The notes below the pieces were generated by a model. That model did not search any database. It had not been told where the DNA came from and saw only the letters and a program-made list of their open reading frames with translations. DNA of 64,000 nucleotides, from contig NZ_SEBS01000001.1 in the NCBI RefSeq assembly GCF_004211145.1, forward strand, positions 1-64,000. The letters are read 5' to 3'. This document shows, in pieces, positions 20,704 to 57,901 of the stretch. This stretch comes from Flavobacterium sp. Its GTDB lineage: Bacteria; Bacteroidota; Bacteroidia; Flavobacteriales; Flavobacteriaceae. Every line of letters begins with the position of its first letter. Position 1 is the stretch's first letter. A program made the position numbers and the translations under genes.

Positions 20704-20732
20704 TTGGTTTTATTTTGCGGCAAAGATAATTA

Positions 20733-20980
20733 ATTAGCGAATTAGGAAATTAGCGAATTAGCGAATGTTTTGGATATGGAAGAAGATTCCGATAAGTTCC
20801 AAATATGAATGCCATTTGAAATTTCGAGTCGGCTTATTGAATATGCGAACTAATGAAATTCTTGGTTACGGAAAAGAAATCCACGTACTTTAAAATTACG
20901 AGTGCACAACTGAAATTTCCGCGTCGTCCTTAAAATAAACGCCATTCGCTAATCCGCTAATTTTCTAATTCGCTAATTTT
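20733..20980. repeat. Intergenic segment bounded by inverted octamer tracts (ATTAGCGA)
   Basis: Left ATTAGCGAATTAGGAAATTAGCGAATTAGCGAATG; reverse complement of right ATTAGCGAATTAGAAAATTAGCGGATTAGCGAATG (33/35). Confidence 0.8.
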
Positions 20981-26009: not shown

Positions 26010-26810
26010 TGTTTTGCAAATTTTTCGCTTCGCGAAACAGGTTTAGGTCGAGGGGCGTGTCTGCTTCGCAGACTTTCCATTCTTTCGTCGCCTGCAGCGG
26101 GCCTTCTTTTGTCTCGCAACAAAAGAAGCAAAAATGCGTGGGCGACGGTAAAATCGGCCGAAAAATCTACGCTTGAATCCGAAGCGACAAAGCCATTGTC
26201 GTAGGTTTGATGTTTTTTGCTGCTTTTCGCGATTCGTTATTATAGGTCAGTGTTGTCGCTCTTGACGGATTCTTCACGTGATTTTTCAAGTCCGATTTCA
26301 CAATGTCGCCAGACTAATCGGAAGTTTTTATTTGTGATTTTACGTCGCTGCGCTTTGCAAAATCGCCTCCGTAGGAAGTTCTGGATTGAGATTTCGTTTT
26401 CTCAGGGGAAAGTTTGCGTTCGCACGATCCGTCGAAGACCGGATGATTCGTTCATTTGGAAGCACATTTTGAAAAGCGCAGCGGCGCAAAATGCCAACAA
26501 ACACTTCAATATAGTCAGCGCCGATTAGTCTCGCAGGCAGGCACCCGGCGGCGCGTAAATCCGTAAGCGCGGCTGTAAATCGCGCTTGCGGGACCAGCCG
26601 CGTAGGATTTTCGTGACTGCCGGGTCGCCTGAGTGACTTGGCGCCCGGCCTTTTTGCTTCTTTTGCGGCCAGGCAAAAAGAAGGCCCGCTGCAGGCGACG
26701 CAAAACAAAAGTTTGCGAAGCAGACACGCCGCTCGACAAAAATCTATTTGCGAAGCAAAAGAAAACTTGTTTTTGCAAAGCGAAAAACAATGACGTCCTG
26801 CAAGGAAAAA
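26010..26810. repeat. Large diverged intergenic palindrome (two ~350-bp arms in inverted orientation)
   Basis: Ordered matching blocks centred at ~26415: GTCGAGSGGCGTGTCTGCTTCGCARACTTT, CGTCGCCTGCAGCGGGCCTTCTTTT, AAAAGAAGCAAAAA, CGAAAAATCTACGC, AGACTAATCGG, CGCTGCGCTTT. Confidence 0.75.
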
Positions 26811-45025: not shown

Positions 45026-45883
45026 ACACGAAGACACGAAGACACTAAGAATCCGCTTTGCAGCGGATTTTTTTTGAACCATCAAGAACACTAACGTCAT
45101 CAAGCGTTCCGCCGAAATAACCTTTGCGCCTTCGTGCCTTCGTGTCAGCCGCGCAGCGAAATTTTAAACCATTAAGGACATTAAGTTCATTAAGTATTTC
45201 GATAAATTGACCTCGCGCGTTTGCGCCTTCGTGCCTTCGTGTCAGCCGCGCAGCGAAATTTTGAACCATTAAGGACATTAAGTTCATTAAGTGTTTCGGT
45301 GAAATTGACCTCGCGCCTTCGTGTCTTCGTGCCTTCGTATCAACCGCGCAGCGAAATTTTAAACCATTAAGGACATTAAGTTTATTAAGTGTTTCGGTAA
45401 AATTGACCTCGTGTCAGCCGCGCAGCGAAATTTTAGACCATTAAAGACATTAAGTTCATTAAGTGTTTCGGTAAAAATGCATTCGCGCCTTCGTGCCTTC
45501 GTGTCAGCCGCGCAGCGAAATTTTAAACCATTAAGGATATTAAATTCATTAAATATTTAGGTAAAATCAACCTCGCGCCCTCGTGTCTTCGTGCCTTTGT
45601 GTCAGCCGCGCAGCGAAATTTTAAACTATTAAGGACATTAAGTTCATTAAGTGTTTCGATAAATTGACCTCGTGCCTTTGCGCCTTCGTGCCTTCGTGTC
45701 AGCCGCGCAGCGAAATTTTAAACCATTAAGGACATAAGTTCATTAAGTGTTTTGGTAAAATTGACCTTCGCGCCTTCGTGTCTTCGTGCCTTCGTGTCAG
45801 CCGCGCAGCGAAATTAAAAACCATTAAGTTCATTAAGCGCTTCGTCAAAATCAACTTCGTGTCCTCGTGTCAGTGGCGCAGCG
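45026..45883. repeat. Higher-order tandem array, 9 anchors of a 74/90/97-98 bp unit built from octamers (CTTCGTGC) and nonamers (CATTAAGTT)
   Basis: GCGCAG(CG) anchors at 45151, 45248, 45346, 45420, 45510, 45608, 45705, 45803, 45876; entry octamers ACACGAAG/ACACGAAG/ACACTAAG at 45026-45049. Confidence 0.95.
45050..45075 (+). terminator. frr terminator
   Basis: AATCCGCtttgcaGCGGATTtttttt. Confidence 0.7.
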
Positions 45884-51706: not shown

Positions 51707-54154
51707 ATGACCAAATGGTTTAGTCTGGGTTTCTGGGAACTGGTCGCAAGAATCGTCTTGCGCAACAAGGTTTTAATGCTTCTATTGGTAGCATTGACGA
51801 CCGTTTTCCTGGTCATGCAGTGGAAGAACATCCGTTTTAGTTTCACCGAAGCGAACCTTTTGCCCGACGACGATCCCACGAATGTCGAATACCGGACATT
51901 CCTTAAAAAATTCGGCGAAGAAGGCAACCTGATTGTAATCGGAGTCAAAGACAGCGCGCTCTTCACCCCGAAAGTCTATGCGTCATGGACCAAATTGATG
52001 CACACGATCGAGATCGATAAAAACGTCGATCTGGTTGTCGATGTGCACAATTTGAAGCAACTCACCAAGAACGATTCGCTCCAAAGTTTCGAACTCACCG
52101 ACTTCACCGACAAATCGAAAACGCAAGACACGACTTATCTCAAAAACATTCGAAGCCGATTGTTCGATGACCTGCCTTTTTACGAAGGTTTGCTGTTCAA
52201 CAAAGGTTCGGGAACGGTTCGCGCCGCGGTTTATCTCGATAAGAAGATCGTGAATTCGCCCGCAAGGAAAGACTTCGTGCTCAAAAAACTGATTCCCGCT
52301 TTAAAGGATTTTGAAACCGAAAGCGGTGTAAAACCCCATGTTTCGGGCATGCCGTACATCAGGACGATGAGTACCGAAACGATAAAAGGCGAGATCGGAA
52401 TTTTCATCGGGGCGTCGCTTTTCGTGACGTGCTTATTGTTTTTCTTCTTCTTCAGGAGTTTCCGCGCGACGATGGTGACGTTGCTTATCGTGACGATCGG
52501 CGTGATCTGGTCGTTCGGATTCTTGGGGCTTTTCAATTACGAGATCACGATCTTGACGGCGCTCGTTCCGGCGTTGGTCATCGTAATCGGTGTTCCGAAT
52601 TGCATTTTCCTGACGAACAAATACCATCAGGAATATTACAAACACCGAAATAAAACAAAAGCGTTGCAACGCGTGACGACCAAGATCGGAAGCGCGACGC
52701 TGCTCACGAACATCACGACGGCGATCGGGTTTGCGACGTTCATCACATCGAACAACAAACTTTTGATCGAGTTCGGAAATTTGACCGCGGTGAACATCAT
52801 GGCGCTGTTTGTTTTGGCGATCATCATCATCCCGATCTTCCACAGTTACATTCCCGCTCCGGCCGATAGACATCTGAAACACCTCGAAGACGATTCGGTA
52901 AAAGGTTTCATGGACTGGATTTTGAGAATGGTGAAATACAATAGATTCTCGATTTACACCGTGACCGTGATTTTGTTATTGGTGAGCGTTTTTGGCCTGA
53001 CCCGCATGAAAATCTCCGGTAGTCTAATTGAAGACATGCCCAAGAAAACCGAATTTTTCAAGGACATCACGTTCTTCGAAAAGGAGTTCAACGGTGTGAT
53101 GCCGCTCGAGATCATGATAGACACGAAGCGTCCGAAAGGCGTCATGAAATTGTCCACGCTCAACAAAATGGAAGAATTCGAGAAGGAAATCGATGAAATC
53201 CCTGAGCTTTCAAAACCGATTTCGGTCGTGAACGTCGTGAAATATTCGAAGCAGGCATTTTACAATGGAAATCCGCAATATTTCGAACTTCCGACACCCC
53301 AGGAGCAGTCGTTTATCTTGTCGTTCGCGAAAAACACGTTGAAAGGCGGCAAGCAAAATCTCATGAAAAGTTACGTTGACAGCACCGGACGTTACGCGAG
53401 AATCACAGCGTTCATGCGCGATGACAACGGGCAACGCATTCCCGAGATCGAGGCGCGCATCCGCAAGGAAGCCGAAAAGATTTTCCCGAAAGATCGTTTC
53501 GAAGTTTCGATCACAGGAAAGTCGCTCGTCTTCCAGAAAGGAACGGGTTATCTGATCGATAATTTGCTTTCATCGCTGTTGTTCGCGTTCGCATTGACCG
53601 GATTCCTGATGGCCTTTTTGTTCCGATCGTTCAAGATGATACTGGTTTCGTTGCTTCCGAATATCTTACCGTTGTTGCTTACCGCAGGAATCATGGGCTT
53701 TTTGAATGTGCCGTTGAAACCGAGTACGATCTTGGTTTTCGGGATCGCGTTCGGGATGTCGGTCGATGATACGATCCGGTTCCTCGCCCAATACCGCGAA
53801 GAACTCAAGCGCAACAACTGGCGTATCAAACCAGCAGTTTACGCGACATTCAATGACGCGGGATTGAGTATGTTTTATACGTCGATCGTGTTGTTCTTCG
53901 GGTTTTCGGTGTTTATGTTGTCGGACTTTGGCGGAACGGTCGCTCTCGGCGGATTGGTCTCGCTCACGCTGTTCTGCGGCATGTTGTCGAATCTGATGTT
54001 GCTGCCCGCTTTGGTTCTTACGCTCAACAAGAAACTGGCGAACGAACAGGACATGCTCGAACCGTTGATCGACGTGAAGGAATATAGCGATGAGGAAATC
54101 GATAACAGGCCGGGGCATCGGGATTTGTCTAAAAGAAAAGCGAATGACGAATGA
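51707..54154 (+). CDS. RND/MMPL-family transporter
   Basis: 12 TM; duplicated SSD-like segments VIGVPNCIFLTNKYHQEYYKH and FGMSVDDTIRFLAQYREEL. Confidence 0.9.
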   Translation: MTKWFSLGFWELVARIVLRNKVLMLLLVALTTVFLVMQWKNIRFSFTEANLLPDDDPTNVEYRTFLKKFGEEGNLIVIGVKDSALFTPKVYASWTKLMHTIEIDKNVDLVVDVHNLKQLTKNDSLQSFELTDFTDKSKTQDTTYLKNIRSRLFDDLPFYEGLLFNKGSGTVRAAVYLDKKIVNSPARKDFVLKKLIPALKDFETESGVKPHVSGMPYIRTMSTETIKGEIGIFIGASLFVTCLLFFFFFRSFRATMVTLLIVTIGVIWSFGFLGLFNYEITILTALVPALVIVIGVPNCIFLTNKYHQEYYKHRNKTKALQRVTTKIGSATLLTNITTAIGFATFITSNNKLLIEFGNLTAVNIMALFVLAIIIIPIFHSYIPAPADRHLKHLEDDSVKGFMDWILRMVKYNRFSIYTVTVILLLVSVFGLTRMKISGSLIEDMPKKTEFFKDITFFEKEFNGVMPLEIMIDTKRPKGVMKLSTLNKMEEFEKEIDEIPELSKPISVVNVVKYSKQAFYNGNPQYFELPTPQEQSFILSFAKNTLKGGKQNLMKSYVDSTGRYARITAFMRDDNGQRIPEIEARIRKEAEKIFPKDRFEVSITGKSLVFQKGTGYLIDNLLSSLLFAFALTGFLMAFLFRSFKMILVSLLPNILPLLLTAGIMGFLNVPLKPSTILVFGIAFGMSVDDTIRFLAQYREELKRNNWRIKPAVYATFNDAGLSMFYTSIVLFFGFSVFMLSDFGGTVALGGLVSLTLFCGMLSNLMLLPALVLTLNKKLANEQDMLEPLIDVKEYSDEEIDNRPGHRDLSKRKANDE

Positions 54155-54310
54155 CGAAAGACGAACGACGAAGGACTTTCGCTTGTCAGTCGGATTCTGA
54201 ACCGTCAATCTTGCTATTCCATACTCCTTTTTGTCCTTCGTCTTTCGTCATTTGTCTTTAGTCTACTGCATTTTTTGTCCTTCGTCTTTCGTCATTCGTC
54301 TTTCGTCTAC
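54142..54310. repeat. Inverted heptamer tracts (GAANGAC / GTCNTTC): one left, two right
   Basis: Left 54142-54176 (5 units); right 54233-54265 and 54277-54310. Confidence 0.9.
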
Positions 54311-54339: not shown

Positions 54340-55785
54340 ATGAAACGTACAAAAATCAACGACCTTCTTTGCTGCACCAAACCGCTTACCGATGTAACGG
54401 CGAAAGGCTGGGTGCGCACATTCCGCAACAATCAATTTATTGCGCTCAACGACGGGTCGACGATAAATAACATTCAATGCGTGGTCGATTTTGAGAATAC
54501 GCCTGAGGAAACTTTGAAGCGCATCACGACCGGAGCCGCGGTTTCGGTTTTCGGTGATTTGGTCGAAAGCCAGGGAAAAGGCCAGAAATACGAAATCCAG
54601 GTCAAAAAGATCGAGATTTTGGGCGATTCCGATGCTGAGAAATTCCCGATGCAACCCAAGAAACACTCGCTTGAATTCTTGCGTGCGAATGCGCATTTAC
54701 GTGTTCGGACGAATGCGTTCGGAGCGATCATGCGCGTGCGTTCGGTTTTGGCCGCAGCGGTACACAAATATTTTCAGGAGCAAGGTTTCGTTTACGTGAA
54801 CACGCCGATCATTACGGGTGCCGATGCTGAAGGCGCGGGCGAAATGTTCCAGGTGACGTCGCTCCCGCTTGACAACTTGCCGAAAAACGAAAATGGAGGA
54901 ATCGACTATAAACAGGATTTCTTCGGGAAACATACGAATCTTACGGTTTCAGGCCAACTTGAAGGTGAAACGTTCGCGATGGCTTTGGGGCAGATTTATA
55001 CGTTCGGGCCGACATTCCGTGCCGAAAATTCAAACACTTCGCGTCACTTGGCGGAATTCTGGATGATCGAGCCTGAAGTCGCGTTCAACGACTTGGACGA
55101 CAACATGGATCTGGCCGAGGATTTCATACAATACGTGATCAAATACGCGCTAGACAATTGCGAAGACGATTTGAAATTTCTTGAGGGACGACTTCTTGAA
55201 GAGGAAAAACAAAAGCCTCAGAACGAACGCAGCGAAATGGCGCTTTTGGAGAAATTGAAATTCGTTTTGGAGAACAACTTCAAACGCGTTTCATATACCG
55301 AAGCTATCGATATTCTTAAGGATTCAACTCCGAACAAGAAGAAAAAATTCCAATATCTCATCGAAGAATGGGGCGCCGACCTGCAAAGCGAGCACGAGCG
55401 TTTCCTTGTCGAGAAACACTTTAAATGCCCTGTGATTTTGTACGATTATCCGGCGAACATCAAGGCGTTTTACATGCGTTTGAACGACGGAACCGAACCG
55501 GGACGCGAAACCGTGCGCGCGATGGACATCCTTTTCCCCGGAATCGGCGAAATCGTGGGCGGATCACAGCGTGAGGAACGTTATGACGTGCTCGTTGAAA
55601 AGATGAAAAAACTCGGCATCGACGAGGAAGAATTGTGGTGGTATCTCGATACGCGCCGATTTGGAACCGCGACGCACTCCGGATTCGGACTTGGTTTTGA
55701 AAGGCTTGTGCTTTTCGTGACGGGGATGACGAATATTAGGGATGTGATTCCTTTTCCTCGTACGCCGATGAACGCGGAGTTTTAA
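54340..55785 (+). CDS. asnS: Asparaginyl-tRNA synthetase
   Basis: OB-fold [74 protein letters not shown]. Confidence 0.97.
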
Positions 55786-55804
55786 GATGGAAGAGTAAAA
55801 GTTT

Positions 55805-55837
55805 GACACGAAGGCACAAAGGCACGAAGGCACGAAG
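55805..55837. repeat. Left octamer tract of the GxxExxY unit
   Basis: GACACGAAGGCACAAAGGCACGAAGGCACGAAG. Confidence 0.9.
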
Positions 55838-55917
55838 TTTTTTTTGTTTGTCCTTGGTCCTGAGTACGGAAAGTCTGGAAATGGATTCGTGATTTTTTTC
55901 TAATGAAGTGATAAAGA

Positions 55918-55952
55918 CGCTAAGATACGAAGTTTGGTTTCGTATCTTAGCG
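55918..55952. repeat. Perfect 14-bp inverted repeat upstream of the GxxExxY ORF
   Basis: CGCTAAGATACGAA-gtttggt-TTCGTATCTTAGCG. Confidence 0.85.
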
Positions 55953-55975
55953 TTTGAATTTTATACGCCATACAG

Positions 55976-56356
55976 ATGAGTAATTTTAAAAACGAAATGA
56001 TCGCGAAAGCGGTTGTGAATGCCGCATATGTTGTCCATACCAGACTCGGTCCGGGACTGCTCGAAAAAATTTACGAGGTTTGCATCGCTCATGAATTGAG
56101 AAAGGCAGGACTTAAAGTGCAGCGACAAATCAAAGTCCCGATAATTTATGATGATATTACGTTCGATGAAGGTTTAAGACTTGATCTTCTCGTTGAAGAA
56201 ACAATTGTCGTGGAAATCAAATCGGTTGAAACGATAAATCCTGTTTGGCAAGCTCAGGTTTTGAGCCAACTAAAACTAACAGGGAAGAATATCGGATTTT
56301 TAATTAATTTTAATGTGCCTTTGATCAAACAAGGCATAAAACGAATAGCTAACTAA
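55976..56356 (+). CDS. GxxExxY family protein (PD-(D/E)XK nuclease-like)
   Basis: GLLEKIY matches GxxExxY; LDLLVEETIVVEIKSVE matches D-x(n)-ExK. Confidence 0.9.
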   Translation: MSNFKNEMIAKAVVNAAYVVHTRLGPGLLEKIYEVCIAHELRKAGLKVQRQIKVPIIYDDITFDEGLRLDLLVEETIVVEIKSVETINPVWQAQVLSQLKLTGKNIGFLINFNVPLIKQGIKRIAN

Positions 56357-56366
56357 AGCGAAGCTT

Positions 56367-56399
56367 CTTTGTGCCTTTGTGCCTTTGTGTCTTCGTGTC
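56367..56399. repeat. Right octamer tract of the GxxExxY unit (inverted relative to the left)
   Basis: CTTTGTGCCTTTGTGCCTTTGTGTCTTCGTGTC; 30/33 with the left tract after reverse complement. Confidence 0.9.
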
Positions 56400-56437
56400 A
56401 AACAAAAAAGGATGCCGCAGGCAGCCGCCCAAAAACA

Positions 56438-57901
56438 ATGCTCAAACAGTCATTAAACTTCAAACTCCAACAAAAGCTCTCGCCGCAGCAAATCCAGCTC
56501 ATGAAGCTGATCCAGCTGCCAACACAAGCCTTTGAGCAGCGTTTAAAGGAAGAGATGAACGAAAATCCCGCTCTCGAAACGGGACAGGAAGAAGACGAAT
56601 ACGAAAAAGACGAGTTCGATAACGAAGAATTCGAAGATTACGATGACGGCGACAACGAATCGATCGAAGCTGAAGACATCAACATAGACGAATACCTTTC
56701 GAATGACGAAACGCCCGACTATAAATTATCGGCGAATAATTACAGCGACGAGGAACAACGCGAGTCGCCACTTGCCGCTTCGGTGAGTTTTCACCAGGAT
56801 CTGATCAACCAGCTCAACACGTTTATCCTGACCGACGAACAGCGCGAAATCGCCGAATTCCTCGTGGGAAGCATTGACGACCAAGGTTACATCAGGCGTT
56901 CGATTCCCGACATCGTCGACGATATGGCGTTCACCCAAGGCATTTACACCGACGAAAAAATCGTCGAGCAAATTTTGCACATCATCCACGAGCTCGAACC
57001 GTCGGGCGTCGGAGCGAGAGATCTGCAGGAATGTCTGCTGTTGCAATTGAAACACAAGACGCCGACAGAATCGGTTGAAATGGCGACCGACATCATCGAA
57101 AACCAATTCGACGCGTTCACCAAGAAACACTACGACAAATTGCGCGCGAAGTACGGCGCATCCCAGGAACAACTCAAGAAAGCGATTGACGAGATCGAGA
57201 AACTCAACCCGAAACCCGGCGGTTCTTTTGCGGGAAGTACGCGACTCATCGAACACGTCGTGCCTGATTTTACGATCCGGATCAACGAAGGCGAGCTCGA
57301 ACTCACGCTCAACGGCAGGAACGCGCCCACGCTTCACGTTTCACGCGATTATCAGGATATGTTGCAGACCTACAAAGATTCACGCGACAAATCACAACAG
57401 CAGAAAGACGCGGTAACCTTCATAAAATCGAAGCTCGATTCGGCCAAATGGTTTATCGATGCGATCCGCCAACGCCAGGAAACACTGATGGTCACGATGA
57501 GCGCGATCATGGAATACCAACGCGAATTCTTCCTCGATGGAGACGAAACGAAATTGCGCCCGATGATTTTGAAAGATATCGCCGATATGGTCGGACTCGA
57601 CATCTCAACGATTTCACGTGTCGCCAATTCCAAATACGTCGATACGCCTTATGGCACGAAACTCATAAAGGAATTCTTCTCGGAAGCGATGATGAACGAC
57701 CAAGGCGAAGAAGTTTCGACGCTCGAAATCAAGAAAATCCTGCAGGACGTTATCGGTGAAGAAGACAAGCACAAACCGCTTCCCGACGATCAATTGGCCG
57801 ACATCCTGAAAGAACGCGGCTACCCGATCGCGCGTCGAACCATTGCAAAATACCGCGAGCAGCTTGACATTCCGGTAGCGAGAATGAGAAAGAAAATTTA
57901 G
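56438..57901 (+). CDS. rpoN: RNA polymerase factor sigma-54
   Basis: QSLNFKLQQKLSPQQIQLMKLIQLP; RPMILKDIADMVGLDISTISRVANSKYVDTPYGTKLIKEFFSE; RPx box IARRTIAKYREQLDIP. Confidence 0.96.
   Translation: MLKQSLNFKLQQKLSPQQIQLMKLIQLPTQAFEQRLKEEMNENPALETGQEEDEYEKDEFDNEEFEDYDDGDNESIEAEDINIDEYLSNDETPDYKLSANNYSDEEQRESPLAASVSFHQDLINQLNTFILTDEQREIAEFLVGSIDDQGYIRRSIPDIVDDMAFTQGIYTDEKIVEQILHIIHELEPSGVGARDLQECLLLQLKHKTPTESVEMATDIIENQFDAFTKKHYDKLRAKYGASQEQLKKAIDEIEKLNPKPGGSFAGSTRLIEHVVPDFTIRINEGELELTLNGRNAPTLHVSRDYQDMLQTYKDSRDKSQQQKDAVTFIKSKLDSAKWFIDAIRQRQETLMVTMSAIMEYQREFFLDGDETKLRPMILKDIADMVGLDISTISRVANSKYVDTPYGTKLIKEFFSEAMMNDQGEEVSTLEIKKILQDVIGEEDKHKPLPDDQLADILKERGYPIARRTIAKYREQLDIPVARMRKKI

Follow-up and report, generated by a model that had tools for sequence, protein, structure and literature searches.

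GxxExxY nuclease-like genes of Flavobacterium usually lie between inverted microrepeats and tend to be accompanied by scattered repeats of matching type

A small gene between asnS and rpoN in a Flavobacterium sp. genome (assembly GCF_004211145.1) is enclosed by inverted tracts of an 8-nt microrepeat and raises the question of what the gene and the repeats have to do with each other. Its product belongs to the GxxExxY proteins, a widespread and conserved family with, to our knowledge, no known function, and we likewise know of no source for the short intergenic microrepeats of these bacteria. GxxExxY is named only in passing in the open-access papers searched, in which no description of its function or of a repeat association was found. 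The window referred to below is the whole 64,000-nt stretch analyzed (contig NZ_SEBS01000001.1, positions 1 to 64,000), for which a preliminary description had proposed that gene and tracts form a compact, self-bounded unit, with the repeat at its ends as the possible substrate of the nuclease. The unit occupies 603 bp (55801-56403) between asnS and rpoN, and the features of the locus are as follows.

54340..55785, plus strand: asnS, co-directional upstream neighbor (ORF list)
55801..55837, plus strand: left inverted arm, a period-8 microrepeat (GTTTGACACGAAGGCACAAAGGCACGAAGGCACGAAG) 92% complementary to the right arm (repeat search)
55917..55953, no strand assigned: inner hairpin between the left arm and the gene, with AAG-ending units like those of the arms
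55976..56356, plus strand: GxxExxY / PDDEXK_3 nuclease gene, 126 aa, with PF13366 and TIGR04256 profile matches
56367..56403, minus strand: right inverted arm, the octamer of the left arm in inverted orientation (repeat search)
about 56438..57901, plus strand: rpoN, co-directional downstream neighbor (ORF list)

The flanking genes, which we take to be asnS and rpoN from the preliminary description and from reading of the translations, lie on the plus strand together with the gene, as had been described; rpoN is kept downstream in 40/40 relatives, and the asnS-rpoN order is the same in the other genomes of the genus in which adjacency could be checked. The arms are 37 nt each and 529 nt apart, slightly longer than the 33-bp ends first described, and contain period-8 tracts at 55807-55837 and 56367-56397 (TRF); they are tandem units, and only the two arms taken together are palindromic. 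The inner hairpin, first given as a 14-bp inverted repeat, is indeed perfect but has 15-nt arms (55917-55931/55939-55953, 100% complementary, 7-nt loop), and its end is 22 nt from the start codon. Folded as single-stranded DNA, the unit retains this hairpin and closes its arms into an outer stem (z = -7.6 versus 20 shuffles). The supposition that the octamer marks the unit's own ends holds insofar as the arms are real, but the repeat is not private to them: with up to two mismatches, GGCACGAAGGCACGAAG occurs 264 times in the genome and 0 times in a reversed control. Window positions 45026-45840 contain an array of about 98-bp units, in several copies, with CCTTCGTG octamers and CATTAAGTA nonamers, and in at least two places (window 26047-26737 and L237:2532-3215) inverted repeats of another kind, with G+C-rich, nested, non-microrepeat arms, bound a segment of about 690 bp.

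The gene is intact, and its 126-aa product matches both PF13366 PDDEXK_3 (E = 1.8e-38, 131.9 bits against a cut-off of 22) and TIGR04256 GxxExxY (E = 2e-40, 137.8 bits against a cut-off of 35) from end to end, in agreement with the GxxExxY and PD-(D/E)XK motifs recognized earlier. These are its only profile matches, and no transposase domain, Y1/HUH included, is among them. Residues E30, D70, E80-x-K82, and Q94 are invariant in 29 proteins from five phyla, so the gene is under selection. The AlphaFold2 model (pLDDT 95, pTM 0.88) has as its best Foldseek matches lambda exonuclease, LHK exonuclease, the Cas4 protein SSO0001, and Hjc, all of them weak and none below E = 0.001; a search of solved structures by sequence gave nothing useful. 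The protein is a member of the PD-(D/E)XK superfamily, with the fold, the D plus ExK active site, and the N-terminal Glu all present, and from the model it looks like a minimal nuclease, presumably active, of the Cas4/lambda-exonuclease branch. It shares the fold and the E..D..ExK..Q active-site layout with Cas4, lambda exonuclease, and Hjc, but is about half their size, and the window locus has no cas or phage context. Membership in CRISPR Cas4 was considered and rejected, because the PADLOC Cas4 match is weak (E = 0.0084) and the neighbors are asnS and rpoN. Genes of the family are present in 121/150 genomes of the genus, with up to 12 copies.

As a score for bracketing, the 400-bp flanks of each gene were compared for their best inverted match without gaps (+1/-2). 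Among 90 GxxExxY loci of the genus, 69% score at least 13 and 61% at least 16, compared with 16% and 10% for the same flanks in direct orientation, 18% and 11% for flanks paired between loci, 2.7% and 0.9% for other ORFs, and 2.2% and 0 for random positions in a sliding control. Outside the genus, 34 loci mainly from other Bacteroidota, but also from Verrucomicrobia, Planctomycetes, Acidobacteria, and Proteobacteria, reach these thresholds in 41% and 29% of cases, against 6% and 2% for mismatched flanks. The units also have a polarity: CRCNRAG is found 2.04 times per 250 bp in forward orientation on the left and 2.29 times in reverse on the right, pointing inwards from both flanks, with 0.35 to 0.41 in the opposite sense and a background of 0.18 to 0.19, a bias about 5- to 6-fold one-sided. 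Clear, if degenerate, tracts are visible even at several loci with low scores, among them the asnS-rpoN copies of L005 and L006. The genome that contains the window has four GxxExxY genes, each between inverted microrepeats of its own different type. Bracketing of GxxExxY genes by matching inverted arms is thus general, and the enrichment of flanking inverted tracts proposed in the preliminary description is present far above background. Common intergenic repeats could in principle come to flank small genes on either side, and the tracts are abundant genome-wide, but such an origin by chance or composition has practically no probability, since all four controls are far below the observed rate and the polarity is one-sided; the controls already refute it.

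Gene type and repeat type are also tied to each other. The tracts for the window, site-0, and site-1 proteins are (GGCACGAA)n, CGCAAAGNNCGCAAAG, and CACARAGNTTCACARAG, respectively. Across 23 sites, merged so that contig-edge copies of one site do not inflate the result, protein identity correlates with arm similarity (Mantel rho 0.36, p = 0.0002; genus only, rho 0.42, p = 0.0004). Of the 121 gene-positive genomes, 61 are enriched in one or the other of two repeat types, as are 2 of the 29 gene-negative ones (odds ratio 13.7, p = 7e-6, kinship ignored); 27 of the 29 gene-less genomes lack enrichment of the tested repeats, the two exceptions being G095 (95% complete) and G135 (85%), and about half of the gene-positive genomes have no strong excess of these first two types tested. 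Among gene-positive genomes, again with kinship ignored, those with the site-0 gene type (arms CGCAAAG) have 11.6 versus 2.8 CGCAAAG per Mb (p = 1.8e-4) and no difference in CACARAG (p = 0.86); those with the site-1 type (arms CACARAG) have 7.1 versus 1.5 CACARAG per Mb (p = 4.6e-10) and no difference in CGCAAAG (p = 0.74). The period-8 repeat type of the window is predicted by neither. When genome size and copy number are included in a rank regression, the cognate terms remain (t = 3.2 and 6.6), whereas the crossed ones drop out. Across genomes of the genus, each gene type therefore tends to predict only its own repeat type, a double dissociation that speaks for GxxExxY being directly involved, without deciding the question. 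The site-0 type is not the sole source of CGCAAAG, because many large CGCAAAG-rich genomes have no site-0 gene.

Inverted pairs are not confined to GxxExxY genes. In the 458 kb of stretches on which the statistics within the window's genome rest, 54 such pairs are present, compared with 8 in a block-shuffled control, and most are gene-less with 13 to 185 bp between the arms. The arm sequence CACGGATACACGGATTTTCACGGAT, from the GxxExxY gene C84, recurs in 28 places, several of them as inverted pairs (control 0); the arms of the L001 type (C35 gene) have no dispersed copies and are present only at the gene itself. Gene-less pairs of other unit types (CGAATGA, AATTAGCG, and CAATTG heptamers or octamers) are located in the window at 54141-54305, 20732-20978, and 35-266, and inverted microrepeats of other types lie without any GxxExxY gene between asnS and rpoN in genomes such as G010 and G002. 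The history of the asnS-rpoN site, for which a check of empty sites had been suggested, is varied: the gene lies between arms in G005, G006, and G013, a broken copy is present in G019, inverted tracts without a gene are found in G004, G015, and others, and the site is almost empty (14 bp) in G016. G015, without the gene here, is sister to G006, which has it. Neither of the two outcomes that, by the preliminary description, would have spoken against its reading was observed.

Where copies at different sites can be aligned (Bacteroidales MAGs and two places in the bat operon), the shared DNA extends only to about the outer arm edge, in support of a compact, self-bounded unit, and inspection of these copies by eye showed no target-site duplication. 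The two bat operon places, which we take from the translations to be batA-batB and batD-batE, contain GxxExxY units (L111, L113, L117, and L119) with proteins 81 to 88% identical, an apparent local relocation. Most GxxExxY copies, including that of the window, are orthologues at conserved sites across species, and the gene is found in 7/72,556 plasmid records and in 0/50,697 phage records. The unit is thus not highly mobile, and the conserved sites weaken a reading as a simple active transposon; of the two options in the preliminary description, that the unit is mobile or that it maintains or spreads microrepeats, the looser one of a nuclease maintaining or spreading repeats fits better.

PF05635 genes are known to have inverted repeats around them and were therefore scored in the same way. 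In the genus, 64% score at least 13, compared with 14 to 18% in controls (L194 to L223), and their arms are inverted microrepeats of a style that differs from that of GxxExxY. They are present in 60/61 genomes of the genus with 1 to 16 copies, and three are in the window's genome (L229:6825-7312, L240:14277-14714, and L241:13460-13975). Like GxxExxY genes, they are small, are enclosed by inverted repeats in these same genomes, and have their own microrepeat style, but PF05635, the 23S rRNA intervening-sequence (IVS) protein, is an unrelated four-helix bundle and no nuclease, and classical IVS sit in 23S rRNA. The window unit itself is not a 23S rRNA IVS element, as it is intergenic and encodes PF13366. 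Because PF05635 genes are bracketed too, bracketing alone is no proof that the nuclease is the agent; either two unrelated proteins each run a system of this kind, or something else spreads the repeats and both genes travel with them. The same genome has a Y1 transposase gene (PF01797, RAYT-like) within a perfect 33-nt inverted repeat (L234:6359-6991) and an anthrone-oxygenase-like gene, a possible case of cargo, inside long inverted repeats in which GTTGATTC octamers are present (L233:12338-13091).

We think it rather likely that GxxExxY genes and the tracts bracketing them are cognate enzyme-repeat systems. A nuclease encoded inside a pair of inverted tracts able to close into a DNA hairpin or cruciform would recognize the tract type that encloses its own gene, with the folded form as the most likely target, and cutting or trimming of such tracts would lead to their copying or gene conversion. 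Gene-less inverted pairs would then accumulate between genes, and the whole unit (arm, promoter, gene, and arm) would relocate occasionally, in a system that is chromosomal and mostly vertical, like REPINs with their RAYT transposases. The DNA-level recognition, cleavage, and copying steps are what we infer from the observed bracketing, polarity, arm matching, association, dispersed pairs, boundaries, and intact active site; that a gene version tends to be accompanied by matching scattered repeats suggests that the enzyme probably makes or maintains them. The inverted pairs could instead be primary, with host machinery or a different enzyme (a RAYT, for example) spreading them and GxxExxY and PF05635 genes as captured cargo. 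The bracketing of PF05635 genes, the many gene-less pairs of varied unit types, and the Y1 transposase and anthrone-oxygenase-like genes within inverted repeats are all in keeping with such capture, and we regard it as unlikely rather than far-fetched. However, only 7 of 136 ORFs of 90 to 230 aa are bracketed (score at least 13) in the 458-kb stretches, themselves partly chosen around such genes, and 6 of the 7 are GxxExxY, PF05635-type, or Y1 transposase genes, not random cargo; moreover, the repeat type tracks the GxxExxY type, beyond mere presence, and the active site is invariant.

The position of the units invites two further explanations. With one representative per site, the upstream neighbor is co-directional with the GxxExxY gene at 34/37 sites, which makes transcription through the unit probable. 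Unselected insertion of DNA at random would not be expected to yield such co-orientation; selection may be behind it, either in favor of expression or against antisense transcripts. The arms and inner hairpin adjoin the start codon, and together with the co-orientation this would suit arms through which the nuclease or a hairpin-binding regulator controls nuclease expression, with dispersed tracts as a regulon or protected sites. We consider such cis-regulation quite improbable, because it leaves unexplained the two-sided bracketing by mutually matching arms, the end of shared DNA at the arms in copies at different sites, and the gene-less pairs of identical sequence. Units within co-directional gene pairs, including those inside the bat operon, and the S23-type ORF of 23S rRNA intervening sequences (PMC4990558) would accord with arms that act in RNA, as intrinsic terminators or as an IVS-like stem for excision from an operon transcript. 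But the right outer side has AAAA in 45/74 cases and TTTT in 8/74, the reverse of what a U tract would give, so that an intrinsic terminator with its T tract after the hairpin is rejected; arm mismatches show no sense-strand bias (G.T 42 versus A.C 50, p = 0.47), leaving a sense-RNA hairpin unsupported. A role at the RNA level is less likely on both counts, and we rate this explanation as very improbable.

The cognate systems proposed here resemble REPIN-RAYT systems, in which a small chromosomal gene for a DNA enzyme has its own repeats on both sides, hairpin-forming inverted doublets without the gene are dispersed, several flavors per genome are each tied to one gene copy (the GxxExxY association ignores kinship), inheritance is vertical, plasmid copies are rare or absent, and repeats are more abundant in gene-bearing genomes (PMC3116915, PMC8049555). 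However, RAYTs are Y1/HUH tyrosine transposases and GxxExxY proteins are PD-(D/E)XK nucleases, REPs are short palindromes and the GxxExxY repeats are tandem 7- to 12-nt units, and GxxExxY has several paralogues per genome; with enzyme and repeats both different, the GxxExxY system is not a member of this group. In Beggiatoaceae, TAACTGA heptamers are abundant intergenic short direct repeats, described as thought to be spread horizontally by a mechanism not known and as similar in distribution to XisH/XisI (PMC4679880, in the passages covered, which contain no mention of GxxExxY). That repeat is one direct heptamer, whereas the GxxExxY repeats form inverted brackets.

More tentatively, and with rather less confidence than in the pairing itself, GxxExxY nucleases could be the missing agents that create and spread tandem 7- to 12-nt intergenic microrepeats in Bacteroidota and several other phyla. 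They would be a non-transposase class acting on the DNA hairpins of inverted tracts, with a specificity that is encoded in the protein and evolves with it, and PF05635 would be a parallel system. Type by type, the link between gene and repeat provides a concrete candidate substrate for each nuclease and would explain a large class of intergenic DNA; if it is true, a way of life like that of REPIN-RAYT systems has evolved around an enzyme of another fold.
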